Notes under the pieces: model-generated
The model's input: only the letters and a program-made list of their open reading frames with translations
Database searches by the model: none
Told to the model about the DNA's origin: nothing
Made by a program: the position numbers and the translations under genes
In this document: in pieces, positions 276-59,643 of the stretch
Layout of the letters: each line of letters opens with the position of its first letter
How positions within the stretch are numbered: position 1 is the stretch's first letter
NCBI RefSeq assembly: GCF_025446935.1
Contig: NZ_JAOEGN010000001.1
Location: forward strand, 62,001 to 126,000
From: Paracholeplasma vituli
GTDB taxonomy: Bacteria > Bacillota_I > Bacilli_A > Acholeplasmatales > UBA5453
Reading direction: 5' to 3'
Length of the DNA: 64,000 nt

Positions 276-914
276 AAAACAAAAGTCACTACGGATAGTG
301 ACGTGGAAAACGCTCTAGCAAGCGGTTTATTTGAAGATGAGGGAATTGTTCTAATTTCTGGAACTGGGATGGTAGCATACGGTAAAAACAAGTTTAGTGA
401 AACCCATAAAGCAGGTGGTCTTGGTTATAAAGAGGGCGATCTCGGTAGTGCTTATGATCTTGGATTAAAAGCCATCCAAGCAGCCTCTAGAGCACTCGAT
501 AATCGATATGATATGACACCTTTTACAAAAGAGGTTATTGAAACATTGAGATTTAATATATCTAATGATGTCATAGACTTTATGGAAGTAAATCGTGAGA
601 ATAGAACATTCATCGCATCTCTCGCACCTATCGTAACTAAGCACGGAGATTTAGGTGATGAATATGCGAAAGAGATTTGTGATAGCGCTGTCGATGAATT
701 AGTGTTAGCTGTATGTGCAGTTCAGAGAAGACTACAGTTTGAACATCCCCAACTCGTCATTGTTGGAACACTTGGTAATGATACACATTACTTTAGGAAC
801 ACACTGTTTTCAAAATTAATGGTTTCAATGCCTGAACTAGAGGTATTCTCACCTAAACTTGAGCCTAATCTCGCAGCTTGTAATTTATCTCTAAATAATT
901 CGGTATTTTTTTAG
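276..914 (+). pseudogene. Remnant of a BadF-type sugar kinase (C-terminal half only)
   Basis: The frame from 276 encodes the last ~210 residues of a BadF/BadG-type kinase and is very close, by eye, to the C-terminal half of the fusion protein at 35108-36964 (shared GLFEDEG, GTGMVAYGKNK, GGLGYKEGDLGS, NRTFIASLAPIVTKH). Homology begins at the codons equal to VTAGSDMENAL of the fusion. A TAA lies directly upstream in frame at 273-275. The N-terminal half with the ATP phosphate-binding motif GIDGGGTKTK is missing. An apparent GTG start at 303 is simply the Met of the SDMENAL motif changed to Val, and no convincing ribosome-binding site precedes it. The C terminus also diverges (ends NNSVFF). It is best read as a truncated, non-functional copy left by recombination. 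Confidence 0.8.
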
Positions 915-1967: not shown

Positions 1968-2900
1968 ATGAAAGAAGTTTTATTTTTAAGTCCTGAATTT
2001 AAATATCGTATTTGGGGCGGTACTCGACTAAAAGAATTCTATAACCAGACTTTACCTTTTGAAAATACAGGTGAAGCATGGGCAATTAGTGCCCATAAAA
2101 ATGGACCTTCAACAGTTTTGAATGGGCCATATAAAAGCATGACACTCGATCATTTATATAGTCGTCATAGAAATCTATTTGGCAATGTAGAATCTAATGA
2201 GTTTCCATTGCTAATTAAAATTATTGATGCCAATGATGATTTATCTGTTCAAGTTCATCCAGATGATCAAATGGCTAAACAATATCATTCATTAGGTAAA
2301 ACAGAATGTTGGTATATATTAGACGCCTCAGAAGATGCTTATATCATTTATGGTCATAAAGCTTTAAGTAAAGCTGATTTTTTAGAATGTGTTGAGCATA
2401 ATAAGTGGGATAACCTACTCAATAAAGTCCCTGTTAAAAAAGGCGATTTCTTCTTTATTCCAGCAGGCATGGTTCACGCATTAGGTAAAGGCATTGTTAT
2501 CTTAGAAACACAACAATCTTCAGATATTACATATCGTTTGTATGACTATGATCGTATTGATAAAGACAATCAAAAAAGAGAACTTCACCTTGATTTAGGG
2601 GTTGAAGCGACAAAAATACCATCACCTGTAGTTAATACTCATGTGTCTGAACATAAAGTTGGTCAAAATCTAGTGACACATCTCATTCATTCTGAGTTCT
2701 TCTCGGTTGAAAAATATGAGCTACAAGAACCTTACCTACTAGAAAACAAACAATATAGACTCATCACTTTCTTAGAAGGTAGTGGGAAAATAGGAGAACA
2801 AACTTACAAAAAAGGCGATTCATGTATTGTCACTAATGACATTAATAATATCTTGATTAGCCCTTCAAACTTTACGCTTTTTATATCTTCCTATATTTAA
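1968..2900 (+). CDS. manA: Mannose-6-phosphate isomerase, class I
   Basis: It interconverts mannose 6-phosphate and fructose 6-phosphate, bringing mannose into glycolysis. The 310-residue protein has the Firmicutes class I layout: RIWGG near the N terminus, LLIKIIDANDDLSVQVHPDD with the zinc-ligand His, KTECWYIL with the ligand Glu, and FFIPAGMVHALG with the later His. The start is ATG 1968, preceded by GAGGTGGT at 1953-1960; an upstream TTG at 1923 lies inside the operator dyad. It closely resembles the N-terminal half of the fusion at 35108 but ends where that protein continues into a kinase. It supplies the enzyme needed by the mannosidases transcribed toward it from the other strand. Confidence 0.93.
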   Translation: MKEVLFLSPEFKYRIWGGTRLKEFYNQTLPFENTGEAWAISAHKNGPSTVLNGPYKSMTLDHLYSRHRNLFGNVESNEFPLLIKIIDANDDLSVQVHPDDQMAKQYHSLGKTECWYILDASEDAYIIYGHKALSKADFLECVEHNKWDNLLNKVPVKKGDFFFIPAGMVHALGKGIVILETQQSSDITYRLYDYDRIDKDNQKRELHLDLGVEATKIPSPVVNTHVSEHKVGQNLVTHLIHSEFFSVEKYELQEPYLLENKQYRLITFLEGSGKIGEQTYKKGDSCIVTNDINNILISPSNFTLFISSYI

Positions 2901-4985: not shown

Positions 4986-5004
4986 CTTTTCACCTTCCTA
5001 GATA

Positions 5005-7621: not shown

Positions 7622-7627
7622 ATATAT

Positions 7628-8731: not shown

Positions 8732-8744
8732 ATGATCGCCCCAT

Positions 8745-8774
8745 CTTAATTATATATCATTTATATCAATTAAG
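8745..8774. promoter_or_regulatory. Repeat-containing gap before the regulator gene
   Basis: Two adjoining 9-base repeats, TATATCATT (8753-8761) and TATATCAAT (8762-8770), sit inside an outer dyad CTTAATT / AATTAAG. On the minus strand a TATAAT also lies here. The cluster may be an internal promoter and autoregulatory site. Confidence 0.35.
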
Positions 8775-8778
8775 TTAT

Positions 8779-9660: not shown

Positions 9661-9668
9661 ATGGCCTC

Positions 9669-10622: not shown

Positions 10623-10659
10623 GAAAACCACCACCTTTCTAAATTAGACTCTATTTTAT

Positions 10660-12012: not shown

Positions 12013-12016
12013 TGTT

Positions 12017-14536: not shown

Positions 14537-14537
14537 A

Positions 14538-15713: not shown

Positions 15714-16981
15714 TCGGCCACCTTTAGTAATATTTGTTCATATTCTGCAAGAATCGAAATTAATTCAGCATTACCAGCTTGATCTAATGTCTTTTGATTT
15801 GGGTATTCATTTGCGTATCTACCAGACCAATCTGCTTTAATAAAGCCTTTATCATCTTTAACGTATTGGTTTGCATAAGTAAATGCGTTTTTGATATGTT
15901 CCAATCTAACACCATAGTTATAATCGACATATCTAAAGGCATCCAAATAGCCTTGAACTAGATACACTCTAAACCAAGGGTTATCGTCTGATGGACGATA
16001 AAACTCACCATTAGGTACAACGCTGTATGGTTCGATAAATGATTTTGAACCTGTCATTAAATTATCGACGTCGGTTTTATAGAACTCACTACCTGTGAGT
16101 TTGTATAAAATCGCTGCAGAAGATAACATCGTGCCCGTATTATAGGTCCACTTTTTGGTATCGACTCTACCGTTTGCCTTAATGTTATCTGAATACGTTT
16201 GAGTGATGCGGTCATAAAGTTTATCTTTGGTCCAGTTATATAATCTAATGCCCCATGTTAAGTAAGTGGCATCACCTGTGATTTCATATAGTAATAAGGA
16301 TGCCCAGGCTGCAGGACCGTTGATACAAGTGTTACGGTCATCCTTGCCTTCAAACTCTTTAGCGGTTATCTCGTTATAGTTATATTCTCGCCAAAAAAGG
16401 CCGCCCACTTCATCTTCTTGCCAGCCATCATAGATATAAGCCATGATTTTTTTGGCTTTATCTAGTTGGCTTTCATCTTCTGTCGTTGTGTAGCCTTTGA
16501 TTAACCCAATGACTAACCAAACGTTATCATCGTAAAATGGTGGGATTTCATCGCCATTTTTTGATGCATACACTAAGTGGTCATCTGGTCTATTTAAAGA
16601 ACGGTACCATTCTAATTCTTCTAAAGCTTGATCATATCGTGCCTTATTAACGCTCGTTCTTTCAACATTATATAATTGACTAGCCATCGTGAAATATGCC
16701 CCATAGCTCCATAAGTTTGCTCTTGGCTTAACCGTTTGATGGTTATTGTCGTAAAGTGTACCTTGGTTCGATCTAAGGTGTTCATTAATCAAATCAGCAT
16801 AGCTAGTTGCTATTTCACCTAGGTTGCCTTTGATTACATATTCATAGTTTAATTTCACTTTTGGGTTCTCCTCGATTGGGGTGTCTGTGTCATCCTCTGT
16901 TGGTGGTTTTTTATTATTACATCCAGCTAACAAAAATATGCTGCCAATTAGTAATAATAATACCATGATCTTCTTATTCAT
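15710..16981 (-). CDS. GH76 endo-alpha-1,6-mannanase lipoprotein (second copy)
   Basis: Lipoprotein (LLIGSIFLLAGC) of 423 residues. GH76 motifs are NLWSYGAYFTMA, catalytic PFYDDNVWLVIGL, GGLFWREYNYNE, RNTCINGPAAWASLLLYE and KKWTYNTGTML. It follows the GH125 gene by 9 bases and overlaps the next GH76 gene by 4. Acting outside the membrane, it should produce alpha-1,6-mannooligosaccharides for import and for cytoplasmic GH125. Confidence 0.92.
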   Translation of the reverse strand: MNKKIMVLLLLIGSIFLLAGCNNKKPPTEDDTDTPIEENPKVKLNYEYVIKGNLGEIATSYADLINEHLRSNQGTLYDNNHQTVKPRANLWSYGAYFTMASQLYNVERTSVNKARYDQALEELEWYRSLNRPDDHLVYASKNGDEIPPFYDDNVWLVIGLIKGYTTTEDESQLDKAKKIMAYIYDGWQEDEVGGLFWREYNYNEITAKEFEGKDDRNTCINGPAAWASLLLYEITGDATYLTWGIRLYNWTKDKLYDRITQTYSDNIKANGRVDTKKWTYNTGTMLSSAAILYKLTGSEFYKTDVDNLMTGSKSFIEPYSVVPNGEFYRPSDDNPWFRVYLVQGYLDAFRYVDYNYGVRLEHIKNAFTYANQYVKDDKGFIKADWSGRYANEYPNQKTLDQAGNAELISILAEYEQILLKVAE

Positions 16982-16990
16982 GTTGCCTCC

Positions 16991-18274
16991 TTATGGGGTC
17001 ATTAAACTATCGATTTGGTCTATATGTTCGTCGACAAAATACGCGAATAACGAGTTTGCCCAAGAAAACCATTCTCTGGTAAATTCACTTGGGTTATCTA
17101 CATGAAAACCTTCATGCATTAAGAATGTATCTGCATGGGTTGATAATAGCATTTTAAGCATATATTTCTTTTCATCTAAGTCTGTTGTAGTTAGGGCTTG
17201 AATGACTAAAGAAATGTGCCAAATGTAACGATCTGGTGTGTGTGGACTACCAACACCTCTACCAAATTTACCCTCATAGTAAAATGGATTGTGTTTGCTT
17301 AAGATGAATTTTCTCGTATTTTGATAGAGTGGATCATCTAATGTCTTATAATCTAAGTAAGGTAGTGATAACAAACTTGGAACGTTTGCATCATCCATTA
17401 AATGATACTGTCCAAAGCCATCGATTTCATAAGCAAATATTTTCCCAAATGTGTCATGTTCAACCACGCCGTGTGTGTGGATGGCTTCATCTATTTTTTT
17501 AGCTAACAAGATAGTTTCTGTTCTAACTTGTTCATTTGGATGGTATGTTCCGATAATCTTTAATGCTAAGACAACAAATTGATTACCTGGAATAAAGTAA
17601 TTATATGTACAAACATCATCAGATGGTCTAAAGGCACTCCATACTAAATCAAGTGATTCATTTACGGCTAGCCCATGACCACCATTTAGAGGTGATTCTT
17701 CTACTTTAGCGCCTGGTCTTACGAACCAATAGGACGATTTTTCTTGATGATTCATTTCAGTTTTAAATGTGTCTAGAATAACATCCATGCCTTTTAAAAC
17801 TGTTTTTGTAAAAATAGTTTTGTTATTAGTTTCTTTATAATATAAATCTAGAATCCATAGTGGGTAACAAAGTGAGTCTAATTCAAACTTTCTTTCCCAT
17901 ACCCATGGGTCTTTTTTAGGTAGGTCACCAACATGACCTAAAGTTTCATCTGGTGCTTCATTAAATGCATTTGCATAAGGGTCAATTAAAATATATTTGA
18001 ATTGTCTTTCTATTAATCCGCTGACAAGTCTATCCATATCCGGATCAATTTTACATAAACCAATATAGTGTCTTACTTGTGCGCTCGAGTCTCTTAGCCA
18101 CATGGCAGGTATATCACCTGTAAATACATAAGATGTGCCATCGTTTAGTATTTTAGTCGTGGTTTCAAGAGTGCTTAGGAAGGTGTTTCTATACATCTTT
18201 TGTAGGTCTGGCCATTTACTTAATTTTTCGAGTCTAGCTTCAAGCCACTCGTAGGTTTTACTATATTCCTTCAT
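16991..18274 (-). CDS. GH125 exo-alpha-1,6-mannosidase, cytoplasmic
   Basis: GH125 enzymes remove non-reducing alpha-1,6-mannose by inversion. The 427-residue protein shows the family blocks GDIPAMWLRDSSAQV, ELDSLCYPLWIL, FRPSDDVCTYNYFIPGN (acid region), MDDANVPSLLSLPYLDY and FLMHEGFHVDNPSEFTREW (base region). There is no signal peptide. The start ATG follows GGAGGAAAA. It is the first gene after the strong hairpin at 18301-18341 and no promoter is visible in the 26 bases between, so it may depend on read-through from the surface-protein gene. It completes backbone degradation started outside by the two GH76 enzymes. Confidence 0.95.
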   Translation of the reverse strand: MKEYSKTYEWLEARLEKLSKWPDLQKMYRNTFLSTLETTTKILNDGTSYVFTGDIPAMWLRDSSAQVRHYIGLCKIDPDMDRLVSGLIERQFKYILIDPYANAFNEAPDETLGHVGDLPKKDPWVWERKFELDSLCYPLWILDLYYKETNNKTIFTKTVLKGMDVILDTFKTEMNHQEKSSYWFVRPGAKVEESPLNGGHGLAVNESLDLVWSAFRPSDDVCTYNYFIPGNQFVVLALKIIGTYHPNEQVRTETILLAKKIDEAIHTHGVVEHDTFGKIFAYEIDGFGQYHLMDDANVPSLLSLPYLDYKTLDDPLYQNTRKFILSKHNPFYYEGKFGRGVGSPHTPDRYIWHISLVIQALTTTDLDEKKYMLKMLLSTHADTFLMHEGFHVDNPSEFTREWFSWANSLFAYFVDEHIDQIDSLMTP

Positions 18275-24044: not shown

Positions 24045-24962
24045 ATGTTATTTTTAGGTATCGATGGTGGCGGGACAAAAACAAAAGTCATCATCATAAA
24101 TGAAGAAAGGAAAGTCTTATATGAAGGTACATCCGGTCCTTCTAGTTTAGATACAGTAGAAGAATCTATAACCATAAAACACATCAATGAAGCCTTATCT
24201 CATTATACTGTTAATGAATCATTTACAGCTGTTTTCGCTGGTTTGGGTGGCGTATCTGATGATTATTATAAAGCACGTCTAAAAGATTTATTAAGACACG
24301 TTATTGGTGTTTCAGAAGAGACATTGAGACTTTCTGCTAGCGATATGGAAAACGCACTAGCAAGCGGTTTATACTTTGAAGAAGGTTTAGCTTTAATCGC
24401 GGGAACCGGGATGGTCGCTTATGGGAAAAACAAAGAAAATATTACCCATAAGGCTGGTGGTTTAGGCTATAAAGAAGGAGATCTTGGCAGTAGCTATGAT
24501 TTAGGTATCAACGCTATTAGAGCATTAGCAAGAGCGCTTGATAATCGTTATCAAAAGACAGCTTTTACAGATGACCTTCAAGCTGCACTAGAGATATCCA
24601 CTGCAAGTGAGATTGCAACGCTAATGGACAAATGGCAAAACGAAAGAACCAAGATTGCCAACCTAGCACCATTTGTAACCAAGCATGCAAACCTTGGTAA
24701 CAGGTATGCAATTGATATTTGTAATCAAGCATCTAGAGAACTAGCTTTATCAGTTAAAGCGGTCCAAGATACAATTAGTTTAGCAACTCCAAAACTCGTG
24801 GTTGTTGGTTCACTCGGCAACTCAGGTGGCTATTTTAAAGAAGCACTTCATGGCTATTTAAAAACATTCATTCCTGGAATTGAAATCATTGAACCTAAAG
24901 TTGACCCAGCCTATGCTGCAGCGTTACTAGCACTTTATTACTACAACAAGCAATTAATATAA
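24045..24962 (+). CDS. BadF/BadG-type sugar kinase (N-acetylglucosamine kinase family)
   Basis: ATP-dependent kinase of about 305 residues in the actin-like ATPase fold. The phosphate-1 loop FLGIDGGGTKTKVIII opens the protein; then come AGLGGVS, the SDMENAL block, GTGMVAYGKNK, and GGLGYKEGDLGS. In NAG kinases the last block usually reads GDEGS. The start is ATG 24045 with AGGTGA four bases before it; alignment with the fusion protein at 35108 supports this. Family members phosphorylate GlcNAc or glucosamine, but the fused copy next to ManA suggests mannose as substrate here. It is a single-gene unit ending in the terminator at 24985. Confidence 0.85.
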   Translation: MLFLGIDGGGTKTKVIIINEERKVLYEGTSGPSSLDTVEESITIKHINEALSHYTVNESFTAVFAGLGGVSDDYYKARLKDLLRHVIGVSEETLRLSASDMENALASGLYFEEGLALIAGTGMVAYGKNKENITHKAGGLGYKEGDLGSSYDLGINAIRALARALDNRYQKTAFTDDLQAALEISTASEIATLMDKWQNERTKIANLAPFVTKHANLGNRYAIDICNQASRELALSVKAVQDTISLATPKLVVVGSLGNSGGYFKEALHGYLKTFIPGIEIIEPKVDPAYAAALLALYYYNKQLI

Positions 24963-25901: not shown

Positions 25902-26888
25902 TTAAGCTCCTTTATGTTCTTTGACGGATTCTCTTTCTACCATTAAACATTCAAGGGTCATGTTGATCAGTTTCGCTTTCTTATTGTGAATGCGTCTGAG
26001 CATCAAGGTAATCGCTTGTTCAGCCATATATTTACGGGATACTTTCATCGTGGTAATTTGAGGGTTTGAAATTTTGGAATAAATGACATCGTCAAATCCG
26101 ATGATGGAAATATCTTCAGGTACTCTTAAGCCTTGTTTGTTTAATTTTTGAATGAGTAAATAAGCGCTATGGTCATTGTTACATAAAAAAGCACTTGGTA
26201 AGGATTCTGGTAAAACGACTTCTTTCATTTCACCAAGTTCGTTACGGTCTTCTAAAATGAGGGCGTTTTTATAGTCAAGCCCCTTTTCAATGAGCGCTTT
26301 GGTAAAGCCTAAATAACGGTCAATAATCGAATTGGTGGATGGGATTCTTCCCACATACCCAATCGAACTGTGGCCGTGTTTTAGTAAGTATTTCGTGGCG
26401 ATGTAGCCCGCGTTAAAGTTATTGGAAACGATACTATCTAAATTGAGGTCATCGTAATAAAAGTCGACACAGATGAGTGGAAGTTCTAAGGCTTCAACGG
26501 CTCTCACGAACGATTTTTCAAACTGTCCTAACATCATGATGCCATCCTTATTTGAGGTGGAAAAATGGATTTGTAAGTTCTTTTCATCGTTCTTCGAAAC
26601 GATTTTTAAAACGAGACTGATGTTCTTTGTAATGGCGTTTTCGTTTAATCGCTTATAAAGGGTTGTATAAAAGTCTTCGGTTTCCGCTAAAAAGATTTCA
26701 GGGACTAAAACAATCAGTTCATACTGTTCGTTCTTGGTATACTGATAACCCATTTCCTGAGCGACAAGGCGGACTTTTTCTTTCATATCCGAGGAAATAT
26801 CCGTATCGTTTTTAAAAGCCTTGGATACGGTCATTCTTGAGATATTCAAACGGTTAGCAATGTCTTGCATTGAGATTTTCTTAGACAT
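25902..26888 (-). CDS. LacI-family transcriptional regulator
   Basis: 328 residues. The N-terminal LacI HTH is complete (ISMQDIANRLNISRMTVSKAF) with a hinge helix region before a periplasmic-binding-type sensor (LICVDFYYDDLNLDSIVSNN, GYVGRIPSTNSIIDRYLGF, ISIIGFDDVIYSKI). It follows GAAGGAGG and sits between a small membrane protein gene and the DUF5011 lipoprotein gene. It is the natural local regulator of the GH130 operon and may bind the CG-centred site at 34831-34844, though that site also fits CcpA. Confidence 0.93.
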   Translation of the reverse strand: MSKKISMQDIANRLNISRMTVSKAFKNDTDISSDMKEKVRLVAQEMGYQYTKNEQYELIVLVPEIFLAETEDFYTTLYKRLNENAITKNISLVLKIVSKNDEKNLQIHFSTSNKDGIMMLGQFEKSFVRAVEALELPLICVDFYYDDLNLDSIVSNNFNAGYIATKYLLKHGHSSIGYVGRIPSTNSIIDRYLGFTKALIEKGLDYKNALILEDRNELGEMKEVVLPESLPSAFLCNNDHSAYLLIQKLNKQGLRVPEDISIIGFDDVIYSKISNPQITTMKVSRKYMAEQAITLMLRRIHNKKAKLINMTLECLMVERESVKEHKGA

Positions 26889-27257: not shown

Positions 27258-28154
27258 TTAGAATGGGTTCGATACTTCGATCGTTTGGACTTCTGCGTCC
27301 GACACCCCAACATAGAGTGTGTAGGTGTTTTTGTTTAGTGGAACCAATGCAGCTGAGAATAAAACGTCAATCAGGTCATCGCGTTTCGATGGACCTGGAT
27401 TGAAATGTTCGCGCGCAGCGATGAGTTTCATCGGGCTTGCTTGTTTCGTTCTGATATCCACTTTAAATGTCATTGAATAATAGTGTCTGATGTCATTACC
27501 TGAGAAGTTCGCGATATGGCCTAGTACTCCAATCGTGTGGTCATCTAACATGAGTAAGTGGTTCGCACCACCCCATTCAGTTAGAATGAACTGCTCGAAT
27601 AAAGGCGCTTTATCGATGAATTCTGTGGTGACTTCGTCATACGAATTCGCGATATCAAATCCAATTTGTCCGCGTTTACCTTTTTCCCCTTGAGGTCTTG
27701 TAAATACACCGATACGACCATCTGGAAGTTCAATTAAACGAACATCTTTCATGCCCATCGGTGCGTTTAAGGATACTTTAAGATTATTTGGATGATCTCC
27801 CTTATAGAAGCGGGTATACCAACGTACTTGGCCATTTTCATGGAATACATACGTACCACCCACAACAAAGTCTAATCCAATCTTTGTAATACAAGGGTCT
27901 TGAAGGTCTAGTGGGGTTAAATCTTCTCTTTTAACATAAATACCATTTTGGTTTTCAAAATAAACAGATTTGGAGACTTCTGAGTCTCTTTTTTCAACTC
28001 TCGCGAGAATGAGTTCTTTACCTTCAAATAGAAATGGGGATGACGGGTTATACACATCATAACCATCCACACCTTTAAATACTAAGGTCTTTGGATTTTT
28101 AGGTAATTCATTTTGATGGTAGTCTTTTAATAAATCTTCAATGGGTTGTCTCAT
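27258..28154 (-). CDS. DUF1861 family protein (five-bladed propeller type)
   Basis: 298 residues matching the DUF1861 (MTP-1) family: DVYNPSSPFLFEGKELILARVE, RDSEVSKSVYF, LQDPCITKIG, GMKDVRLIELPDGRIGVFTRP, EWGGANHLLML, IGVLGHIANFS and FNPGPSKRDDLIDVLFSAAL. The repeating pattern of strands and the QDP motif recall GH43/GH130-like beta-propellers. Family members commonly sit beside GH130 genes, and here the gene overlaps GH130 by 4 bases. There is no signal peptide. The activity is not known to me; a role in beta-mannoside breakdown is inference. Confidence 0.8.
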   Translation of the reverse strand: MRQPIEDLLKDYHQNELPKNPKTLVFKGVDGYDVYNPSSPFLFEGKELILARVEKRDSEVSKSVYFENQNGIYVKREDLTPLDLQDPCITKIGLDFVVGGTYVFHENGQVRWYTRFYKGDHPNNLKVSLNAPMGMKDVRLIELPDGRIGVFTRPQGEKGKRGQIGFDIANSYDEVTTEFIDKAPLFEQFILTEWGGANHLLMLDDHTIGVLGHIANFSGNDIRHYYSMTFKVDIRTKQASPMKLIAAREHFNPGPSKRDDLIDVLFSAALVPLNKNTYTLYVGVSDAEVQTIEVSNPF

Positions 28155-29209
28155 AGGGCTCCTTCAAACGGTTCTAGCGCTTCAAATAATTCATCTAATG
28201 ATATCGTAGCTAAACATATTTTATCATCTGCTGCGCCATAATAAATATCTAGTAAGTCATTTTTCAAAATGACCCCACAGGTAAATACCACATCTCCGAA
28301 GAAACCTTCTTTTTCATAAATGGTTTCCGGTTTTAAGATCGGATGCTTGGTTTTATGTGTGATTCTGGTTGGATCATTTAGTGGGGTTAGGAAAGCCCCT
28401 AAACTGTAGACGGCTTTACCTGCAGTCGCGGCGTGGTAAATGTGTAGCCAGCCTTTGTCTGTTTTCACAGAAGGCGCTCCACCACCGACACGGCCATTAT
28501 CCCAACCTGTTTTGTTTACAGTCATCAAGAGGTGATGGTCACCCCAGTGGGTTAAATCTAAGGATGAAGCCACCCACATGTTTGGATAACCAATATCACT
28601 CGGCACGGGGCGGTGATACATATAGTATTTACCATTTACTTTTTCTGGGAATAGCGAAACATCTTTATTATCTACAGGTAAAATGATCCCTTTACGTGTA
28701 AATGTATCAAAATCATTGGTTTCAATGAGTCCAACAGATACACCGTGTTTGGACACCGCGGTGTAGGTAATGTAATACGTATCTTCGATTTGGGTAATGC
28801 GTGGGTCTTCGACACCCCAGGATTCCATCATTCCTTCTGGAAAGATCCAAGGCTGTTCGTCGATTATAAAGTGAATACCGTCATTAGAGAAGGCCCTTCT
28901 AAGATGAGAGAGCGAGGTGAGGTATTCCACTTTTTTGTTTAAATTACTAATTGTTCTAGAGTCGTGGAATAGTAGATTTGGGTTCGATTTATCGATGGTC
29001 TTTATCTCAATTTCGTTGTCTTTATTTAAAACAGGTACATCGATGAACCCAGGTCTACTCTTCGCACTCTCTGCGATTCTAAGTAATAGGACGGTTTGTC
29101 CATTGTAAGTGGTTGCGCCACAATTGAATACACCATCCACTTTGAGTGATTCATGGGTGGGCTTAATATCTTTAGTGGTTATAAGTGGATTTTCTTTAGC
29201 TCTATTCAT
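28151..29209 (-). CDS. GH130 beta-mannoside phosphorylase/hydrolase
   Basis: 352 residues, five-bladed propeller of family GH130. Visible blocks are NCGATTYNGQTVLLLRIAES, MESWGVEDPRITQIEDTYYI with the catalytic Asp in the EDPR motif, YYMYHRPVPSD, WDNGRVGGGAPSVKT and CGVILKNDLLDIYYGAADD. Most GH130 enzymes phosphorolyse beta-1,4- or beta-1,2-mannosides to mannose 1-phosphate; a subgroup hydrolyses. I cannot assign the subgroup by eye. The protein is cytoplasmic. If it is a phosphorylase, a phosphomannomutase would be needed and none is in the window. Confidence 0.9.
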   Translation of the reverse strand: MNRAKENPLITTKDIKPTHESLKVDGVFNCGATTYNGQTVLLLRIAESAKSRPGFIDVPVLNKDNEIEIKTIDKSNPNLLFHDSRTISNLNKKVEYLTSLSHLRRAFSNDGIHFIIDEQPWIFPEGMMESWGVEDPRITQIEDTYYITYTAVSKHGVSVGLIETNDFDTFTRKGIILPVDNKDVSLFPEKVNGKYYMYHRPVPSDIGYPNMWVASSLDLTHWGDHHLLMTVNKTGWDNGRVGGGAPSVKTDKGWLHIYHAATAGKAVYSLGAFLTPLNDPTRITHKTKHPILKPETIYEKEGFFGDVVFTCGVILKNDLLDIYYGAADDKICLATISLDELFEALEPFEGAL

Positions 29210-29228
29210 CTATTCACCGATCATTTCT

Positions 29229-31169
29229 TTATAGAACTCGGACTCTAAGTGTGATTTGATCATAAGCGCCTTGTTTTGTGTAGACACGAATGATGATTGA
29301 CTTAGATCCTGAGGTCCCTGTTAAGTTTAAACTATTGGATGTATATTGGGTTGTTTTCCCTTCGAAAACGACTTCATAGTAATCCACTTCATCTGTTGGA
29401 TTGTTTAAGAATGTATCCACAATGAGTTTGAAGTTTTTAGGTACTTCTGCATTGTTTTGATAGTTGAGAACATTTAATGTGGCTTGTGAACTGGAAAGAA
29501 TGATATCCCCTACTTTAGTGAGGTTTTCAGTTCTTGTTGGGTTCGCACCACTTGGAAGTTCAACGATTACAACTGCTTGTTCTTTTTCTAAAACCAAATC
29601 GTATTCACCTTTAGCGTTAGTCGTAAGTACATTTTCTGTGACTGCGTCATAAAGTACAGTACCCGATTCAGGTGTATATTTAACTGTTTCAGTCTTTGAA
29701 TTTGGATTATAGAGTAAATAAGTTGGATAGGTTTGGTTATAGTAATCACCTGAGTTCAAGTCTATCTTCAGGATGCCATCCACATTCGTCTTCTCATAGA
29801 GGGAACCAAGCATTCCCATAGAGGCCCCTGAATAGACTGAAAAGTCTGTTTTAGCCCAATTGTAAACCGTTGGGTCTCCACCAAACCAAGGTGATTTATT
29901 GTTACCTGATTTACGAATCCCTTCATACGGGAAGACGTTATTCGCGAGTGTATTGAAGGCCTGTGCTTCACTTGCGTACTCGCTGTTATTCATCGATTCA
30001 TTTTCATCTTTAGCGTAATTCGGGAAGAAGTATCTTGAGTTTGAAATCAAATGGTTGAGCCATTTTCCGATACTGGCCGCATAGCGTGTGTCGTATTTGG
30101 CGGTTTTCGCCATAATGAATGCTGAGGCGAAAGAGTTCATCGAGAATGGATAGCCACCGCCATCGGTAATAGAACCCATTAAACCCGATACCGCGAAGCC
30201 ATTATAGTTATCATTCAGCATCCCCCAACCACCACGCGGAATGGAGTTCCCATTAAACACCGCGTTAAACAAACGGTTCACATCAAAGTTGGTGTCAAAT
30301 TCTTGGTTGTATTTAGCAGCTAAGTAAGGTCCAAAGTATAAAAGGATTTCATACATGGGTGACCCTGAGTATTTTTCTTCAATATACTTCAAAGATTCAA
30401 TCGCAGCGTCTTTATACTTGGTTTCTCCAGTGAGTTTGTATCCATAATACATAAGCATCGAAATACCTACTGCACTATCGGGTTCACGCCATACGTTGTT
30501 ACGGTAAGGGGTCATGGATTTGAAATCAAAACCAGTAAAGTCATAATCTTGTAAGTTATGCATTACTAAATACGCTTGATACCAAGATTCAATTGTCTTT
30601 AATGTGTTGGTTCTTAAGAGTACTTCATCCTCATAGAGTATCGATACTTGGGTAAAAAGAATCGCTGGGTAGATCATATACCACATCGAAATATTACGGC
30701 TATTGCCCGATGGGTTATTGATGACCACTTGTTCTTCTTCATTGAAGTATACATTCAGTGGGGTAACAAAGTTGTGTCCGTTTTGATTGGATTTATCAAT
30801 CCCGAGTAAGGAAGCACTTAAGACAGCAGCAACTGAAGTTACAGCTTCTTGAGACCCATCCACGCCATTACGATAATCGCCTACATAAGCGGAAATCCCA
30901 TATGCGTCATTTGTCGAATCTGCCCAAATAAGCGGAAATAACGTACCGGTCTTTTCAAAATCAAACACCAATTGATCATAAGCGAGTGCTTTTGATTTGA
31001 AATCGATGATTTCGTAGTTTTCAGGTAGCTCAGAATCGAATTGATTCACGCGTTGAATCGATTTCTGATATACGGCTTTTAAGTTGTTATTTTGAGTATT
31101 GGTGCAAGCAAAGGTGCTTACGCTTGTAAGCACCAGTAGCATGACCAATGTGATCTTTTTGACCCTCAT
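29229..31169 (-). CDS. Large lipoprotein, probable all-helical glycan-active enzyme, family unknown
   Basis: 646 residues with a lipoprotein signal ending STFAC. Residues ~130-480 are rich in helices and aromatic/Asp/Asn motifs typical of (alpha/alpha)6 toroids: SMWYMIYPAILF, NNVWREPDSAVGISMLMYYGYKL, GGWGMLNDNYNGFAV and SITDGGGYPFSMNSFASAF. The C-terminal ~150 residues are beta-rich, with an Ig-like end. The gene is between GH130 and a small lipoprotein gene in an importer operon. I cannot place it in a known family. A glycosidase or lyase acting outside the cell, producing oligosaccharides for the importer and GH130, is the best inference. Confidence 0.6.
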   Translation of the reverse strand: MRVKKITLVMLLVLTSVSTFACTNTQNNNLKAVYQKSIQRVNQFDSELPENYEIIDFKSKALAYDQLVFDFEKTGTLFPLIWADSTNDAYGISAYVGDYRNGVDGSQEAVTSVAAVLSASLLGIDKSNQNGHNFVTPLNVYFNEEEQVVINNPSGNSRNISMWYMIYPAILFTQVSILYEDEVLLRTNTLKTIESWYQAYLVMHNLQDYDFTGFDFKSMTPYRNNVWREPDSAVGISMLMYYGYKLTGETKYKDAAIESLKYIEEKYSGSPMYEILLYFGPYLAAKYNQEFDTNFDVNRLFNAVFNGNSIPRGGWGMLNDNYNGFAVSGLMGSITDGGGYPFSMNSFASAFIMAKTAKYDTRYAASIGKWLNHLISNSRYFFPNYAKDENESMNNSEYASEAQAFNTLANNVFPYEGIRKSGNNKSPWFGGDPTVYNWAKTDFSVYSGASMGMLGSLYEKTNVDGILKIDLNSGDYYNQTYPTYLLYNPNSKTETVKYTPESGTVLYDAVTENVLTTNAKGEYDLVLEKEQAVVIVELPSGANPTRTENLTKVGDIILSSSQATLNVLNYQNNAEVPKNFKLIVDTFLNNPTDEVDYYEVVFEGKTTQYTSNSLNLTGTSGSKSIIIRVYTKQGAYDQITLRVRVL

Positions 31170-31175
31170 GGGATC

Positions 31176-31730
31176 TTATAAGTTGCCTTGTAAAATGGTG
31201 AAGGATAATACTTCTACATTCGCGTCAGAAGCTCCGACAGCCCAAATCCAGAATTTGCCTTCGATTTTACCATTGTATACGTCGATAATGTCTTGTCCGA
31301 ATTGAGAGTTCACGTCAACCATGACATATTTGCCCCATTTCATACCGTTGTCTTCAAATACATATAGACCCCAATCGTGACCTTCTTCTGGGTTTTCAGG
31401 CACGAACTTAACAGTCCATTTGAAAGCGTCATTGACTTCTTTGATTTGGATTGCGATATAAGTTTGTTTAGTTAAATCTAATGTTAAAACTGGAGATTGA
31501 ACGCCACCCCAAGATTCAGCACCTACACGAATCACAGTGAAGTCGCCTTCTGCGTTATACGTTGCTGTACCTAATGCAGAACCGTCTGGAGTTACAGAAC
31601 CTGTCCATGAACCTAAATCTTGTGCAGAGAATTGCTTAACGATTTTTAAGCCATCTCCTGATTCATTGCCACACGCTACAAGCGCGAGAGCTGTTAATAA
31701 AACTACTGCCAAAGTTAAAAACTTTTTCAT
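31176..31730 (-). CDS. Small lipoprotein, beta-rich, possible carbohydrate-binding module
   Basis: 184 residues with signal LLTALALVAC. The mature part is predicted to be nearly all beta strand with many exposed Trp (GSWTGSV, RVGAESWGGVQSPVLTL, AFKWTVKFV, HDWGLYVFED, KFWIWAVGA), a composition typical of a jelly-roll sugar-binding module. It is encoded 6 bases before the large lipoprotein gene and 29 bases after the MalG-type permease gene. No catalytic motif is seen. Confidence 0.6.
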   Translation of the reverse strand: MKKFLTLAVVLLTALALVACGNESGDGLKIVKQFSAQDLGSWTGSVTPDGSALGTATYNAEGDFTVIRVGAESWGGVQSPVLTLDLTKQTYIAIQIKEVNDAFKWTVKFVPENPEEGHDWGLYVFEDNGMKWGKYVMVDVNSQFGQDIIDVYNGKIEGKFWIWAVGASDANVEVLSFTILQGNL

Positions 31731-31759
31731 TTCTTTTTTCTCCTCTTTCTATATATTTT

Positions 31760-32626
31760 TTAACCTTTGATACCGGACATTTTGACGCCCTCCACAAAAT
31801 ACTTTTGGGCGTATAAGAGAATGGCTAATATCGGGACTAAGGCGATGAAGCTCGCTGCCATCAGTGGACCCCAGAGGATCTCACCCGATAATGAGTTGAA
31901 TGAAGCCAAACCCAGTTGAATCGTGTACTTCGCTGGGTCATTGATATAAATCAACTGACCTAATAAGTCATTCCATGTGCCCATGAAGGCCCATAGCGCA
32001 ATCGTTATGAGCGCTGGTTTAGCCAGCGGAATAAAGATACGGGTGAATATTTGCATATGGTTTGCACCGTCGATATAAGCCGATTCTTCATAATCTTTGG
32101 GGCATGTTTCAAAATACATTTTTAGGAAGAATATAAACGATGCACTCCCGAAGTAGGCAGGAAGTATAAGTGGGGTATAGTTGTCGGTAAGACCTAACAT
32201 CGACCACATGATAAAGGTTGGAATCATCGTGACTTCATAAGGCAACATCATGGTTGCTAATAATATCATGAACAAGAGATTACGACCTTTAAACTTGAAT
32301 CGTGCGAAGCCAAAAGCGACCGCTGCGGAAACAAACACTTCCCCAAAGATCTTAAGAATAGCGATTACTACGGTATTCCACATATAACTGAATATGGGAA
32401 TGATTTCGAAGGCTCTTTTAAAGTTTTGAATAAAGAAGCCTTTCGGGAAAAACGAGATATTCGCATTGATGATTTCCGATTCGGTTTTAAGTGAAGTCGA
32501 AATCATCCAGAAAAATGGCAATAACATGACCACTGAGCCTAAGAGTAGACCCGTATGAATAAGTACGCTCTGAATGGTTTTTTTACGGAAGTGTGCACTT
32601 CTGACTTGCTTGACTGTTTTTTCCAT
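31760..32626 (-). CDS. ABC sugar importer permease, MalG type
   Basis: 288 residues, six membrane segments. The EAA loop reads EESAYIDGANHMQIFTRIFIP and the C terminus is KYFVEGVKMSGIKG, both typical of CUT1 MalG-type permeases. It pairs with the permease encoded 10 bases upstream. As in the other two importers of this window, no ATPase is encoded, so a shared MsmX/MsiK-type ATPase must serve it. Confidence 0.92.
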   Translation of the reverse strand: MEKTVKQVRSAHFRKKTIQSVLIHTGLLLGSVVMLLPFFWMISTSLKTESEIINANISFFPKGFFIQNFKRAFEIIPIFSYMWNTVVIAILKIFGEVFVSAAVAFGFARFKFKGRNLLFMILLATMMLPYEVTMIPTFIMWSMLGLTDNYTPLILPAYFGSASFIFFLKMYFETCPKDYEESAYIDGANHMQIFTRIFIPLAKPALITIALWAFMGTWNDLLGQLIYINDPAKYTIQLGLASFNSLSGEILWGPLMAASFIALVPILAILLYAQKYFVEGVKMSGIKG

Positions 32627-32636
32627 GATGTGCCCC

Positions 32637-33500
32637 CTATTCCGTATGAACCCAATATTTTTTGGTCACATTCACAATGACAGTGAAGAACATAATGATG
32701 ATAAACAAAATCCAAGCTAACGCAGTTGCGTAACCCATCTTATAATGCGCAAAGGCTTGTTCGTAAAGGTAAACCATGTAGAATTCACCCTCACCGCCCG
32801 CTCCACCCAAGACGTAGGCATCTGTAAACTTACGGAACGCAGAGATGATACCAATTATTAAGTTATAGAAGATAATCGGTGTCATCATTGGTAAGGTGAT
32901 ATACCAAGTCTTATGTAAGCTATTCGCGCCATCAATCTCTGCAGATTCATAGAGTGAGGTTGGCACGTCTTTTAAAGCAGAGAGATACGTTAGAATCCCC
33001 CCGCCTGCACCCCATACTGCCATAATGAGATAGGAAGGTAATACCCATTCCGGGTCATAAAGCCAGTTAGACCCTTTGACTCCCACCAACTCTAATATAT
33101 AGTTGATTAAGCCATTGTTTGGATCTAATATCCATCTAAATACAATCGATACGGCAACCCCTGAGACAATCGCAGGCATATAGTATAAAATACGGTAAAC
33201 GCCAGCGCCTCGTAGATTCTTTGATAGCATGACTGAGATTGTAAATGAGGTAAATACCACTAATGGAATCGCAATAATAGCATATCTAAACGTAATCCAT
33301 AATGAATGCCAAAATTGATCCGCATTAAATATTTCTTGATAGTTTTGTAAACCGATAAATTGAATGTTGGTTCCTACAATTGACCAATCGGTAAAGCTGA
33401 TGAATACCGCAGCAATCATTGGTAAAATGGTGAACAAAAGAAATCCAATGACCCAAGGTAATACAAAGTAGAGTCCTATTCTATCTTTTTTACTCATCAT
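32637..33500 (-). CDS. ABC sugar importer permease, MalF type
   Basis: 287 residues, CUT1 MalF/UgpA type. The first membrane segment is LYFVLPWVIGFLLFTILPMI. The EAA loop is YESAEIDGANSLHKTWYITLP. It starts directly at the stop of the binding-protein gene (no gap). It forms the channel with the downstream MalG-type protein. Confidence 0.92.
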   Translation of the reverse strand: MMSKKDRIGLYFVLPWVIGFLLFTILPMIAAVFISFTDWSIVGTNIQFIGLQNYQEIFNADQFWHSLWITFRYAIIAIPLVVFTSFTISVMLSKNLRGAGVYRILYYMPAIVSGVAVSIVFRWILDPNNGLINYILELVGVKGSNWLYDPEWVLPSYLIMAVWGAGGGILTYLSALKDVPTSLYESAEIDGANSLHKTWYITLPMMTPIIFYNLIIGIISAFRKFTDAYVLGGAGGEGEFYMVYLYEQAFAHYKMGYATALAWILFIIIMFFTVIVNVTKKYWVHTE

Positions 33501-34760
33501 CTAATCCTTAATCTTTGCGCGCATATTCGCTGCGGCTTTATCGATTAAATCGATGTAGTCGACATTCGGATTTTGCAGAATTGGTAAGTATAAGCCTCTC
33601 CATAAATATAAATCTGATAGTTCAGTCCACTGTTCTGTGTAGTTCGCACTTCTTGCATTCGCTAAGGCATGTTCAATCGTAGGCAAAGCAGGAATCTTAT
33701 CAGGAGCAATCACACTAATGTTATCTAATGTGCCTTTAATTGGTGGCGCAATCTTCCAAGTAAAGAAGGCTAGTGTCAAAGCTTCTAGAGCTTCATAGGC
33801 TAAATCTTTATCTTTAACACTTGATGACATCACGGTAGATGCGGTCCAGTCAAATGGGTTCGATTTACCACTTGGGTCGGATGGAATTTGGGCGTAGCCT
33901 AATTCAAATCGATCCGCTTCAGGCATTAAGGTGATTTTTCTTTCAAAGTCATCTTGAATGCCCCCCATATACATCGCCACTTCTTGTCTTTCAAAATAGA
34001 CATTACGTGGGTAAGAGATGTTGTTATATCTTGGAATGAGGTTTTCTCTAAATAGTGTCACTAAATTACCGATACCGGCTTTTGTGCCTTCTGAATCGAG
34101 TAAGACAGTTTTACCGTCAGAGGATAAGATATCACCACCGCCACTCCAAATGAATGTTTCGATGTTTGGGTTACCTTCAATTACTGTCGCATATACCGAT
34201 TTATCTCGATAGGTCTTACCAGCGATTTGTCTGGAAGTTTCAATAAACTCTGCCCAAGTCCAGTCGTCGGTTTGTGTTGGCATATCGACGCCTAAGGCTT
34301 CGAACATCGTTTTGTTGTAATAGACGATGAATGGGTTCGCAATCCAAGGTAAGCCCCAAGTCTTATCTTGGAACTGTGCACTTTGGATGACACCTTCATA
34401 GTAGTCTTCTTCATTGAGTGACTCACTGTTTGCCATATACGTTGTTAGATCGACAATAGCGCCTAAGTCAGCATACTTAGCGATGAGTTCTTGTGTGATC
34501 CAAAAGAAAGATGGCGCTCTTCTCGCGGCGATTTGTGTCGAGAGTTTAATATAGTAATCCGAAGGTATCGATAACGTCTTTATCGTATATTTCCCTTCTG
34601 CTTGTTCATTGACTTGTTTGACAATCGCATTGAATTCGGATAATTCTGTACCAGCTGCCCATGTCGCAATCGTAAACTCATTCGACGGGGTGTTATCTGT
34701 ACAAGCAGCAAGTATACCGGTTACTAAGACCATCAGTAACATACCTAGCATTTTTTTCAT
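33501..34760 (-). CDS. Sugar-binding lipoprotein of the GH130-operon importer
   Basis: 419 residues with lipobox LVTGILAAC. Family 1 solute-binding protein features are EFTIATWAAGTE, QEVAMYMGGIQD-like ERQEVAMYMG, and a C-terminal WRGLYLPILQN. It is the first gene of the operon running from 34760 down to 25053 and has its own strong promoter (34808-34836) with an overlapping cre-like site. The substrate is probably a beta-mannoside-containing oligosaccharide, given GH130 downstream. Confidence 0.9.
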   Translation of the reverse strand: MKKMLGMLLMVLVTGILAACTDNTPSNEFTIATWAAGTELSEFNAIVKQVNEQAEGKYTIKTLSIPSDYYIKLSTQIAARRAPSFFWITQELIAKYADLGAIVDLTTYMANSESLNEEDYYEGVIQSAQFQDKTWGLPWIANPFIVYYNKTMFEALGVDMPTQTDDWTWAEFIETSRQIAGKTYRDKSVYATVIEGNPNIETFIWSGGGDILSSDGKTVLLDSEGTKAGIGNLVTLFRENLIPRYNNISYPRNVYFERQEVAMYMGGIQDDFERKITLMPEADRFELGYAQIPSDPSGKSNPFDWTASTVMSSSVKDKDLAYEALEALTLAFFTWKIAPPIKGTLDNISVIAPDKIPALPTIEHALANARSANYTEQWTELSDLYLWRGLYLPILQNPNVDYIDLIDKAAANMRAKIKD

Positions 34761-34807: not shown

Positions 34808-34836
34808 ATCATACCGACTTTATTTTCAAATGTCAA
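34808..34836 (-). promoter_or_regulatory. Strong sigma-A-type promoter of the GH130 operon
   Basis: On the minus strand TTGACA-N17-TATGAT, with a perfect -35. Transcription would begin near 34801, about 40 bases before the binding-protein start codon. The leader holds two copies of AGTTACGAAA. Confidence 0.85.
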
Positions 34837-34844
34837 CGCTTTCA
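34831..34844 (-). promoter_or_regulatory. cre-like catabolite operator overlapping the -35 box
   Basis: TGAAAGCGTTGACA on the minus strand fits the CcpA consensus TGWAARCGYTWNCW at 13 of 14 positions and shares the -35 hexamer. Binding by CcpA, or by the operon's LacI regulator, would block the polymerase. Confidence 0.65.
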
Positions 34845-35058: not shown

Positions 35059-35107
35059 GTGTGCTAAGTCATGTAAAGTGACAAATTTTACAAGTGAGGT
35101 ATACACC

Positions 35108-36964
35108 ATGAAAAACGATGTATTATTTTTATCCACAGAGTTTAAATATCGCATATGGGGTGGACGCCGACTTGAAGAAATCTATTCTGAAAAGCTACCT
35201 TTTGATAAAACAGGTGAAGCTTGGTGCATCAGTGCACATCCAAATGGACCTTCAAAAGTTTTGAATGGTGATCATCAAGGCAAAACCTTAACTGAACTGT
35301 ATAAAACCAACCGTGAACTCTTCGGTAACATTGAGAGTGATGTATTTCCGTTATTAATAAAAATCATTGACGCGAATGATGATTTATCCGTTCAGGTTCA
35401 TCCTGATGATTTACTTGCAAAAAAATACCAATCACTGGGTAAAACCGAGTGTTGGTATATTTTAGACGCAAGCGAAGACGCTTATATTATTTTTGGTCAT
35501 AAGGCTTTAACCAAAGATGAATTTATTGATTATGTGAATAGAGGCAAATGGGATGAATTGCTCTATAAAGTGCCTGTTAAAAAGGGTGACTTCTTCTATA
35601 TTCCTGCAGGGATTCTACATGCATTAGGTAAAGGCATCTTAGTATTAGAGACACAGCAGTCTTCAGATATCACTTATCGTTTATACGACTATGATCGTAT
35701 CGATATCAATGGCACCAAACGAGAACTTCATTTAGAAGCAGGTATAGAAGCAACCCTGATCCCAAGTCCAAATTCAAATACTAAGCCACATACATTCAAA
35801 GTGGATCAAAATCAAATCACAAGACTGATTGATTCATCTTTCTTCACTGTGGATAAATGGGTACTCTCTGAACATATGACATTCACTAATCCATTGTTCA
35901 AACTGATTACATTCGTTGAAGGTTCGGGTATGATTAATGGGTATCCCTATAAAAAAGGTGATTCTTGTATTGTGACTTCACTAATGAAATTGATTGATAT
36001 TTATCCAAATGAGCCAACTTTGGTGATTGCTTCTCACATTTTAGATAAAGAACCTGACTTACTGTTCTTAGGTATTGATGGTGGTGGAACCAAAACCAAA
36101 GTATCCATCATCGACGCAAACAAGCAACTAGTCTATGAAGGTCTATCCGGACCTTCAAGCCTTGATACAGTCAATCAAAAGACTACTTTAAGAGCGTTTC
36201 AAGACGCATTGATCCCTTTCTTTGAAAAACACCCAAATACTGTTTTTAAAGGTGTTTTCGCAGGTCTTGGAGGCGTTTCAAAAGTGTCTGATAAAACACA
36301 ACTTAAAAACATCCTTTCGCTCATTCCAGGCGTTACTAATAAAACAAATGTCACTGCAGGCAGTGACATGGAAAACGCTCTAGTAAGCGGTTTATTTGAA
36401 GATGAAGGCATGGTCTTGATTGTAGGAACTGGTTCAGTAGCTTATGGTAAAAATAAAAAAGGTGAAACCCATAAAGCAGGTGGACTTGGATACAAAGAAG
36501 ACGACTTTGGCAGTGCTTATGATTTGGGCTTGAAAGCCATCCAAGCAGCATCAAAAGCACTGGATAATCGATATGAAACAACCGCCTTTACTAAAGCGGT
36601 TATTGAAGTATTAAACTTTAAAGAACCGAACGACGTTATCGACTTTATGGAACACTATCGTGAAAATAGAACCTTCATCGCGTCGCTCGCTCCTATCGTG
36701 ACGAAGCATGCAGATTTAGGCGATGCTTATGCCATGAAGATTTGTGATAACGCAGTGGATGAATTGGTTTTAGCTGTATGTGCAGTTCACAGAAGACTAC
36801 AGTTTGAACATTCACAACTTGTCATTGTCGGCACGCTTGGGAATGAAACGAATTACTTTAAAAAGACGCTTCATAAGAAACTGATCGAATCGATTCCAGT
36901 ATTAGAAATAACAGCTCCAAAAGTTGATCCTAGTTTAGCTGCAAGCCTAAACTCTTTAATATAA
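35108..36964 (+). CDS. Fusion: mannose-6-phosphate isomerase plus BadF-type sugar kinase
   Basis: A single 618-residue protein. Residues 1-310 are class I mannose-6-phosphate isomerase (RIWGGRRL, DDLSVQVHPDD, GKTECWYIL, FFYIPAGILHALG). Residues ~318-618 are a complete BadF-type kinase (FLGIDGGGTKTKVSII, AGLGGVS, SDMENAL, GTGSVAYGKNK, GGLGYKEDDFGS). The start is ATG 35108, seven bases after GTGAGGT. The parts match the free ManA at 1968 and the free kinase at 24045. Joining the two suggests consecutive steps: free mannose to mannose 6-phosphate to fructose 6-phosphate. The kinase half reads DDFGS where NAG kinases have GDEGS. No frame break occurs at the junction. It is transcribed divergently from the GH130 operon. 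Confidence 0.92.
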   Translation: MKNDVLFLSTEFKYRIWGGRRLEEIYSEKLPFDKTGEAWCISAHPNGPSKVLNGDHQGKTLTELYKTNRELFGNIESDVFPLLIKIIDANDDLSVQVHPDDLLAKKYQSLGKTECWYILDASEDAYIIFGHKALTKDEFIDYVNRGKWDELLYKVPVKKGDFFYIPAGILHALGKGILVLETQQSSDITYRLYDYDRIDINGTKRELHLEAGIEATLIPSPNSNTKPHTFKVDQNQITRLIDSSFFTVDKWVLSEHMTFTNPLFKLITFVEGSGMINGYPYKKGDSCIVTSLMKLIDIYPNEPTLVIASHILDKEPDLLFLGIDGGGTKTKVSIIDANKQLVYEGLSGPSSLDTVNQKTTLRAFQDALIPFFEKHPNTVFKGVFAGLGGVSKVSDKTQLKNILSLIPGVTNKTNVTAGSDMENALVSGLFEDEGMVLIVGTGSVAYGKNKKGETHKAGGLGYKEDDFGSAYDLGLKAIQAASKALDNRYETTAFTKAVIEVLNFKEPNDVIDFMEHYRENRTFIASLAPIVTKHADLGDAYAMKICDNAVDELVLAVCAVHRRLQFEHSQLVIVGTLGNETNYFKKTLHKKLIESIPVLEITAPKVDPSLAASLNSLI

Positions 36965-54731: not shown

Positions 54732-55540
54732 TTGATAAATGCCTCATTTGGTTTGACGTTAAAGGCTTTCGCAAGTCTCAATAAATCTTCATCCGAAATG
54801 AGTTTATGGTTACTAAATGGTTTAATGGTTAAATAGGTCATAGCGGCTTTTTCCACTGTTTCAACTAAACCAAAGGTTGAGTCGAGTGTGTCGCCACAGG
54901 CGACTACACCATGAAGTGGCCATAAGACGATTTTGAATGTTTTAAATTTGTCTGCTGTGTTTTTTCCAATGATGCCATTGCCGGGGATTTCCCAAGGAAT
55001 AATACCAATACCCTCAGGGAATATGATGATGTTTTCGGTGTTTAAACCCCATAACGCTTTTGAGAATGTTTTTTCATCTAGCTCTGTAATCGCACTCATC
55101 ATATTGGTGTAGGTTGTGTGGGTATGGATGATGACGCGGTGTGTTGGGTCGATTTCAAGTCTAGAGATGTGTGAAGCTAGGTGTGTAGATAATTCAGAGG
55201 TCGGTCTTTCGGTTGGTTTTAATCCCCAAAGGATTTCCACATGATCGCCATTTTCAGTGACTTTTACGATACAACTGTTCGCTTCAGGGTGCTCTTTGAC
55301 ATTTTTAAAATACTTCCCTGACCCGGTGACTAATAGGTATTTCCCCGCCAACGCTTTCGCATTGATTTGAAGTGGGTACAATCTTCCTGGTTTCGATAAG
55401 TCTAAGTAAAGGGATAGCTCAGCTTGATCTAGGATGAACGAAACGTTCCCCGCATTTCTTTCATCCCAACCAAGTAAATACATACGGTCAATGACATTCG
55501 AGAATTCTTGGATAAACTTGGATTCTAATATGTTTTTCAT
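54728..55540 (-). CDS. rhaD: Rhamnulose-1-phosphate aldolase
   Basis: It splits L-rhamnulose 1-phosphate into dihydroxyacetone phosphate and L-lactaldehyde. The 270-residue class II zinc aldolase has the family start FIQEFSNVIDRMYLLGWDERNAGNVS, the phosphate-binding VTGSGKYFKN, zinc-ligand His in VIIHTHTTYTNMM and the third His in LWPLHGVVACG. It overlaps rhaA by 4 bases. A lactaldehyde reductase is not in the window. Confidence 0.95.
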   Translation of the reverse strand: MKNILESKFIQEFSNVIDRMYLLGWDERNAGNVSFILDQAELSLYLDLSKPGRLYPLQINAKALAGKYLLVTGSGKYFKNVKEHPEANSCIVKVTENGDHVEILWGLKPTERPTSELSTHLASHISRLEIDPTHRVIIHTHTTYTNMMSAITELDEKTFSKALWGLNTENIIIFPEGIGIIPWEIPGNGIIGKNTADKFKTFKIVLWPLHGVVACGDTLDSTFGLVETVEKAAMTYLTIKPFSNHKLISDEDLLRLAKAFNVKPNEAFIK

Positions 55541-59460: not shown

Positions 59461-59507
59461 CTTTGTTTCGTCCTTACTAAATATAAATATAATCGCGTTG
59501 TTATCGC

Positions 59508-59521
59508 TGGAAACGGTTTCA
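59508..59521 (-). promoter_or_regulatory. cre site in the rhamnose operon leader
   Basis: On the minus strand TGAAACCGTTTCCA is nearly palindromic and fits the relaxed CcpA consensus TGNAANCGNWNNCW throughout. It lies just downstream of the predicted transcription start, in a roadblock position. Confidence 0.7.
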
Positions 59522-59535
59522 TTTGGTTCATCACA

Positions 59536-59565
59536 ACTATAACAGTTATGGCGGATTAAAGTCAA
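59536..59565 (-). promoter_or_regulatory. Promoter of the rhamnose operon
   Basis: On the minus strand TTGACT-N18-TATAGT. Transcription should begin near 59530 and run through 14 genes to the terminator at 42053. Confidence 0.75.
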
Positions 59566-59580
59566 CTAATGAACGTTATC

Positions 59581-59628
59581 TTGACAATTAGTCACGATAA
59601 TTGTAAAATTCAGTCATATTCAGTCACA
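59581..59628 (+). promoter_or_regulatory. Promoter and direct-repeat operator of the deoR-type gene
   Basis: TTGACA (59581-59586) -N17- TAAAAT (59604-59609) is a near-ideal promoter. Two tandem copies, TTCAGTCATA and TTCAGTCACA (59609-59628, 10-base period), begin at the -10 and cover the start point. Tandem repeats one helical turn apart are usual DeoR-family operators, so autoregulation is likely. Confidence 0.8.
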
Positions 59629-59643
59629 TTTTTGGAGGAATCT

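Follow-up and report, generated by a model that had tools for sequence, protein, structure and literature searches.

Kinases of the PF01869 family tend to be labeled GlcNAc kinases or 'BadF ATPases'. Among the described systems closest to the enzyme considered here, the ATP-dependent hexokinase of Sulfolobus tokodaii (structures 2e2n, 2e2o and 2e2q) offers the nearest functional precedent, being a plain-hexose kinase of the same family and fold that a title cited in PMC9550789 describes as broad in specificity; it differs in being archaeal and single-domain, and we know of no link between it and the mannose-6-phosphate isomerase ManA. MurK of Clostridium acetobutylicum (8zo3), which shares this fold, phosphorylates both MurNAc and GlcNAc (PMC5790795). 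The reaction that we propose below, from mannose to mannose 6-phosphate, is that of ROK-family fructo/mannokinases and polyphosphate glucomannokinases, which belong to a different family, and no fusion of these enzymes to ManA was found in the literature searched. The ManA of Bacillus subtilis (1qwr), for its part, carries no fused kinase.

We analyzed a window of 64,000 nucleotides from Paracholeplasma vituli, of the order Acholeplasmatales, in which one gene encodes a type I mannose-6-phosphate isomerase followed by a PF01869 sugar kinase (Table 1). That ManA is here fused to a BadF-type kinase, as the original prediction for this DNA had it, is borne out by a single frame in which Pfam and NCBIfam profiles recognize both families, and the free copies of each half that it placed in the window are indeed present; a third copy, a kinase remnant, went unmentioned there. 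Both its lack of the first hundred or so residues and its position 1 kb away from the free ManA make this remnant a probable pseudogene. We hold it very probable that the kinase half phosphorylates mannose, its breadth toward glucose left apart, and with the same assurance that the fusion acts in mannose catabolism as a bifunctional enzyme, with mannose as a physiological substrate.

Table 1. Features of the fusion gene and its surroundings (positions in the window)
Feature	Position	Strand	Basis or remark
Truncated kinase remnant, 76% identical to kinase half	303..914	+	without N-terminal phosphate-binding lobe
Free ManA, 67% identical to ManA half	1968..2900	+	
Free kinase, same clade, 53% identical to kinase half	24045..24962	+	
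LacI-family regulator, downstream of operon	25902..26888	-	
Divergent operon: solute-binding protein, two permeases, 184-aa and 646-aa proteins, GH130, DUF1861	27258..34760	-	
LacI/cre-like palindrome TGTCAACGCTTTCA	34831..34844	.	intergenic, between fusion and divergent operon
ManA-kinase fusion gene, 618 aa	35108..36964	+	one uninterrupted frame; profile matches to both families (Pfam, NCBIfam)
ManA half, residues 1-312	35108..36043	+	VHPDD, TECWY, GILHAL, YRLYDYDR motifs; 1qwr alignment
Junction DKEPD, residues 313-317	36044..36058	+	sequence and alignment
Kinase half, residues 318-618, NAGK/MurK/hexokinase-type PF01869	36059..36964	+	DGGGTKT, Asp420, GTGS
Ser351 codon (= human NAGK Asn36, T. 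forsythia MurK Asn32)	36158..36160	+	alignment; Asn role from PMC10465942
Catalytic Asp420 codon (= human NAGK Asp107)	36365..36367	+	alignment
Glu464 codon, clade-specific, sugar loop	36497..36499	+	alignment

The identity of the N-terminal half is straightforward. Residues 7-292 match the type I phosphomannose isomerase profiles PF20511 and PF21621 above their curated cut-offs (75 versus 22 bits and 33 versus 27 bits, respectively), the half exceeds the cut-off of the TIGR00218 manA equivalog (186 versus 116 bits), and it aligns over its full length with the B. subtilis structure (E 3e-85), with which it has in common the metal-site and active-site motifs VHPDD, TECWY, LHAL and YRxYDYDR. An AlphaFold2 model of the full-length fusion rendered this half poorly, mostly at pLDDT <50, the underlying alignment being shallow.

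The kinase half, in contrast, was modeled well (pLDDT 94, pTM 0.89), and its residues 321-614 match PF01869 at 99 bits against a cut-off of 31.5, covering positions 1-269 of the 271 in the profile. The best solved matches, obtained from the model of the full-length fusion, were C. acetobutylicum MurK (Z 31.5, 29% identity across the kinase half) and S. tokodaii hexokinase 2e2q (Z 29.4). The predicted fold by itself leaves the substrate unsettled, and it is a counterpoint to the mannokinase reading that, among solved structures, a GlcNAc/MurNAc kinase comes nearest, with a broad-specificity hexokinase close behind. The fusion scores below the bacterial NagK equivalog NF046058 (NagK_SO3507; 104.6 bits versus a cut-off of 370) and gave no match at E values up to 0.001 to the ROK profile PF00480, which the free kinase matches weakly (28.6 bits). 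Related ROK-family folds include regulators (PMC12696579), and the kinase half could by that analogy be a catalytically idle domain that senses sugar or serves as a scaffold for ManA. We consider this scarcely credible, given that the catalytic Asp420 and both phosphate motifs (DGGGTKT and GTGS) are intact, as they are in C. acetobutylicum MurK, that no DNA-binding domain is present, and that the half is under purifying selection. Judged by their motifs, the active sites of both halves look intact.

The frame is open from a GTG at 35045 to a TAA at 36962-36964, with a hairpin 3' of the stop codon; translation probably begins at the ATG at 35108, preceded by a ribosome-binding-like GTGAGG at 35094-35099. 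By alignment, the five-residue junction sits where the free ManA stops and the free kinase starts, clean, in frame and without leftover intergenic sequence. Purifying selection on both halves is indicated by Nei-Gojobori dN/dS values of about 0.13 for the ManA half against its paralog and 0.22 for the kinase half against the free kinase, both with dS near saturation, and of 0.15 for the kinase half against the remnant. The probability that 618 codons would stay open by chance at this base composition is about 7e-19. A sequencing error that merged two genes might be suspected in a draft genome (43 contigs) whose fusion found no counterpart in an order-wide search or in wider samples, but the clean in-frame junction, its position on a 207-kb contig and the purifying selection on both halves make an artefact of assembly or annotation very unlikely.

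The original prediction had suggested surveying other genomes for the same fusion, and here the outcome was negative. No second ManA-kinase open frame was found with either a kinase or a fusion query across the whole order (160 genomes), in class and phylum samples (395 and 392 genomes, overlapping) or in a further order (90 genomes), and a contig scan with the kinase alignment gave no second fusion among 80 loci. The fusion has thus been seen in one genome only, while in relatives the kinase and ManA are separate neighboring genes: in a genome of the same family (L041; also L088) the operon order is the same, and the two genes are divergent and 250 bp apart. In a literature search of partial coverage, we found no paper linking mannokinase with BadF, nor any ManA-kinase fusion.

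ManA has, however, acquired a different partner elsewhere in the order. Four loci (L037, L038, L039 and L040) encode proteins of approximately 640 aa in which ManA is fused to a GDP-mannose 4,6-dehydratase (PF16363). Like the kinase fusion, these join an N-terminal ManA to a second enzyme of mannose metabolism, but the partner is biosynthetic and not adjacent to ManA in the pathway. ManA frames of 630-650 aa from another family within the order were considered as candidate kinase fusions and rejected, the four examined being these dehydratase fusions; many genomes of that family have frames of similar length. The argument that fused enzymes commonly catalyze consecutive steps, on which the original prediction leaned, is therefore supportive of a mannose kinase rather than decisive, weakened both by the singleton status of the fusion and by the existence of ManA fusions to a non-adjacent enzyme.

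Stronger evidence comes from the relatives of the kinase half. In a tree of 147 kinase rows, 57 group with the fusion kinase in one clade (SH-aLRT 100), and the split was already present in an earlier tree of 136 rows. With the window's own rows left out, ManA lies within 15 kb of 25 of 55 clade loci versus 2 of 88 outside the clade, and MurQ within the same distance of none of the 55 versus 52 of the 88 (Fisher p 1e-10 for ManA and 2e-15 for MurQ, values that are not corrected for relatedness among the sequences and serve only as description). Roughly half of the rows in the clade have no ManA nearby, owing in part to contig ends, and several of the kinases without a local ManA adjoin GH38 alpha-mannosidases. 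Clade kinases were absent from the congeners tested. Among 14 relatives with a full-length MurQ match, a non-clade kinase lies within a few bases of MurQ in 13, implying that the amino-sugar kinase duty is already covered there; many relatives carry a second, distant PF01869 kinase directly adjoining murQ. The nearest tree rows to C. acetobutylicum MurK include MurQ-linked kinases.

Mannose use is not required of every clade member. A sub-branch of six (L174, L176, L216, L219, L225 and L226) adjoins GH36 alpha-galactosidases instead of ManA, and its kinases may act on a different substrate. Outside the clade, kinases in a Deinococcales locus (L094) and in Pelolinea (L115) adjoin long ManA-like genes and may represent an independent origin of the kinase-ManA link, yet they keep the Asn discussed below. 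ManA-like proteins of 570-600 aa, with an N-terminal half lacking any Pfam match, were also observed (L046:14271-15992 and similar), at loci that carry DUF4185 enzymes, an ABC transporter, an SGNH hydrolase and a clade kinase.

The residues of the sugar pocket divide the same two groups. Human NAGK contacts the N-acetyl carbonyl through an Asn, whose counterpart in T. forsythia MurK is part of the lining of the same cavity (PMC10465942). At this position Asn is found in 86 of the 90 rows outside the clade, and in C. acetobutylicum MurK, whereas 50 of the 57 clade rows, including the fusion, have Ser and a single one (L215) retains Asn. Two and three residues farther on, most of the clade has Asp and Thr; by residue count, these correspond to the cavity residues Phe34 and Phe35 of T. 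forsythia MurK. Glu464 is shared by 56 of the 57 rows in the clade but by none of the 90 outside, where Leu, Ile, Phe, Met or Ala stands, and the loop that reads HIIGDEGS in C. acetobutylicum MurK is YKEDDFGS in the fusion. Such changes suggest that the ManA-linked clade has a remodeled version of the pocket that accommodates the N-acetyl group in NAGK and MurK, and we infer that they would exclude N-acetyl sugars.

These observations bear on the possibility that a GlcNAc, MurNAc or ManNAc kinase was joined to ManA by chance or for co-regulation. Most of the characterized bacterial PF01869 members nearby use amino sugars, and the closest structure, 8zo3, binds GlcNAc. Set against this are the avoidance of MurQ throughout the clade, the loss of the N-acetyl-contacting Asn and the shortfall from the NagK equivalog noted above, together with the genome itself, in which family searches found no murQ and the nagA gene adjoins a ROK kinase; an amino-sugar substrate is accordingly very improbable.

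The surroundings of the fusion point toward mannose-containing polymers. The window encodes a GH92, two GH76, a GH125 and a GH130 enzyme, the last, a putative beta-mannoside phosphorylase, within the divergent transporter operon; its best NCBIfam match is mannobiose phosphorylase, below the cut-off of that model. The palindrome between the fusion and this operon overlaps the -35-like box of the operon, and its LacI/cre-like pattern occurs three times in the window against 0.4 expected, with only one good site near the fusion; TGTCAACGCTTTCA is a predicted operator through which a LacI-like regulator may control the fusion. Farther upstream, the stretch 2952-18274 combines GH92, the two GH76 and GH125 with two DUF2961 (GH172-type) proteins, a SIS isomerase, a PfkB kinase and ABC transport genes. 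It looks like a locus for degrading a polymer of alpha-mannan plus D-arabinan, possibly arabinomannan, with a D-arabinose 5-phosphate route; DUF2961/GH172 and DUF4185 enzymes that break down D-arabinan have been described (PMC10115798). Elsewhere in the window, an L-rhamnose isomerase, an FGGY kinase, an oxidoreductase and a DeoR regulator form a probable rhamnose locus (55537-60405), and two adjacent frames at 62099-63163, which resemble two parts (74% and 61%) of a 353-aa frame immediately upstream of the window (L035:9436-10497), are possibly a broken duplicate.

Family searches of the whole genome found no PTS_EIIC or EII-Sor, and a genome with a mannan-degrading locus and no sugar-PTS EIIC needs a mannose kinase. 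No other obvious candidate appeared among the kinase families searched, though an enzyme of another family, such as the PfkB kinase at 5026-5946, might conceivably serve. The genome has two ROK kinases, one with the glucokinase-type motif CTCGLEGC and the other that beside nagA, as well as two PGM/PMM-type mutases that could handle mannose 1-phosphate released by GH130. In the pathway that we propose, mannosides imported by ABC transporters would be cut to mannose by the GH92, GH76, GH125 and GH130 enzymes; the C-terminal kinase would form mannose 6-phosphate from cytosolic mannose at the expense of ATP; and the N-terminal half, ManA, would pass this on as fructose 6-phosphate to glycolysis. 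Any gain from tethering the two enzymes, such as channeling or a fixed stoichiometry, is speculative.

A broader enzyme, which would phosphorylate glucose, mannose and perhaps other C2-hydroxy hexoses with no preference for mannose, overlaps with this explanation and is possible, though we think it doubtful. It would fit the rank of the S. tokodaii hexokinase as second-best structural match and the GH36 neighbors of some clade members. A glucokinase-like ROK enzyme is nevertheless encoded separately in the genome, linkage to ManA would be unexpected for a glucokinase, and the S. tokodaii enzyme has the Asn but not the clade Glu. A mannokinase (EC 2.7.1.7), an assignment that we infer from genomic context and residues, thus stays the best-supported reading of the kinase half, in line with the original prediction, and the linkage of the clade to ManA with its avoidance of MurQ, the loss of the Asn and the gene content of a PTS-less, mannan-degrading genome weigh more in its favor than the fusion does. 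The accompanying claim, of a mannose-specific role for a branch of a family mainly known for GlcNAc phosphorylation, is supported as regards mannose, which may be one hexose among several, and with the further qualification that PF01869-type kinases already included a broad-specificity hexokinase in S. tokodaii.

Our findings suggest that the kinase phosphorylates mannose, a role not hitherto assigned to this branch of PF01869, and their novelty lies less in a single fusion than in the assignment of a subfamily and its signature. With more reserve, we lean toward a dedicated PF01869 mannokinase subfamily in the Acholeplasmatales and related Bacilli, marked by Asn-to-Ser and Leu/Ile-to-Glu replacements, of which one lineage has become fused and tethered to ManA and serves growth on mannan- or arabinomannan-type polymers. 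If the clade is a mannokinase, it would supply the first step of mannose catabolism, otherwise missing from a genome without a sugar PTS, Ser351 and Glu464 (fusion numbering) would provide a signature for re-annotating its relatives, and the group would allow a clean test of what shifts the preference of this fold from amino sugars to plain hexoses or back, for which the fusion is a ready-made coupled enzyme.
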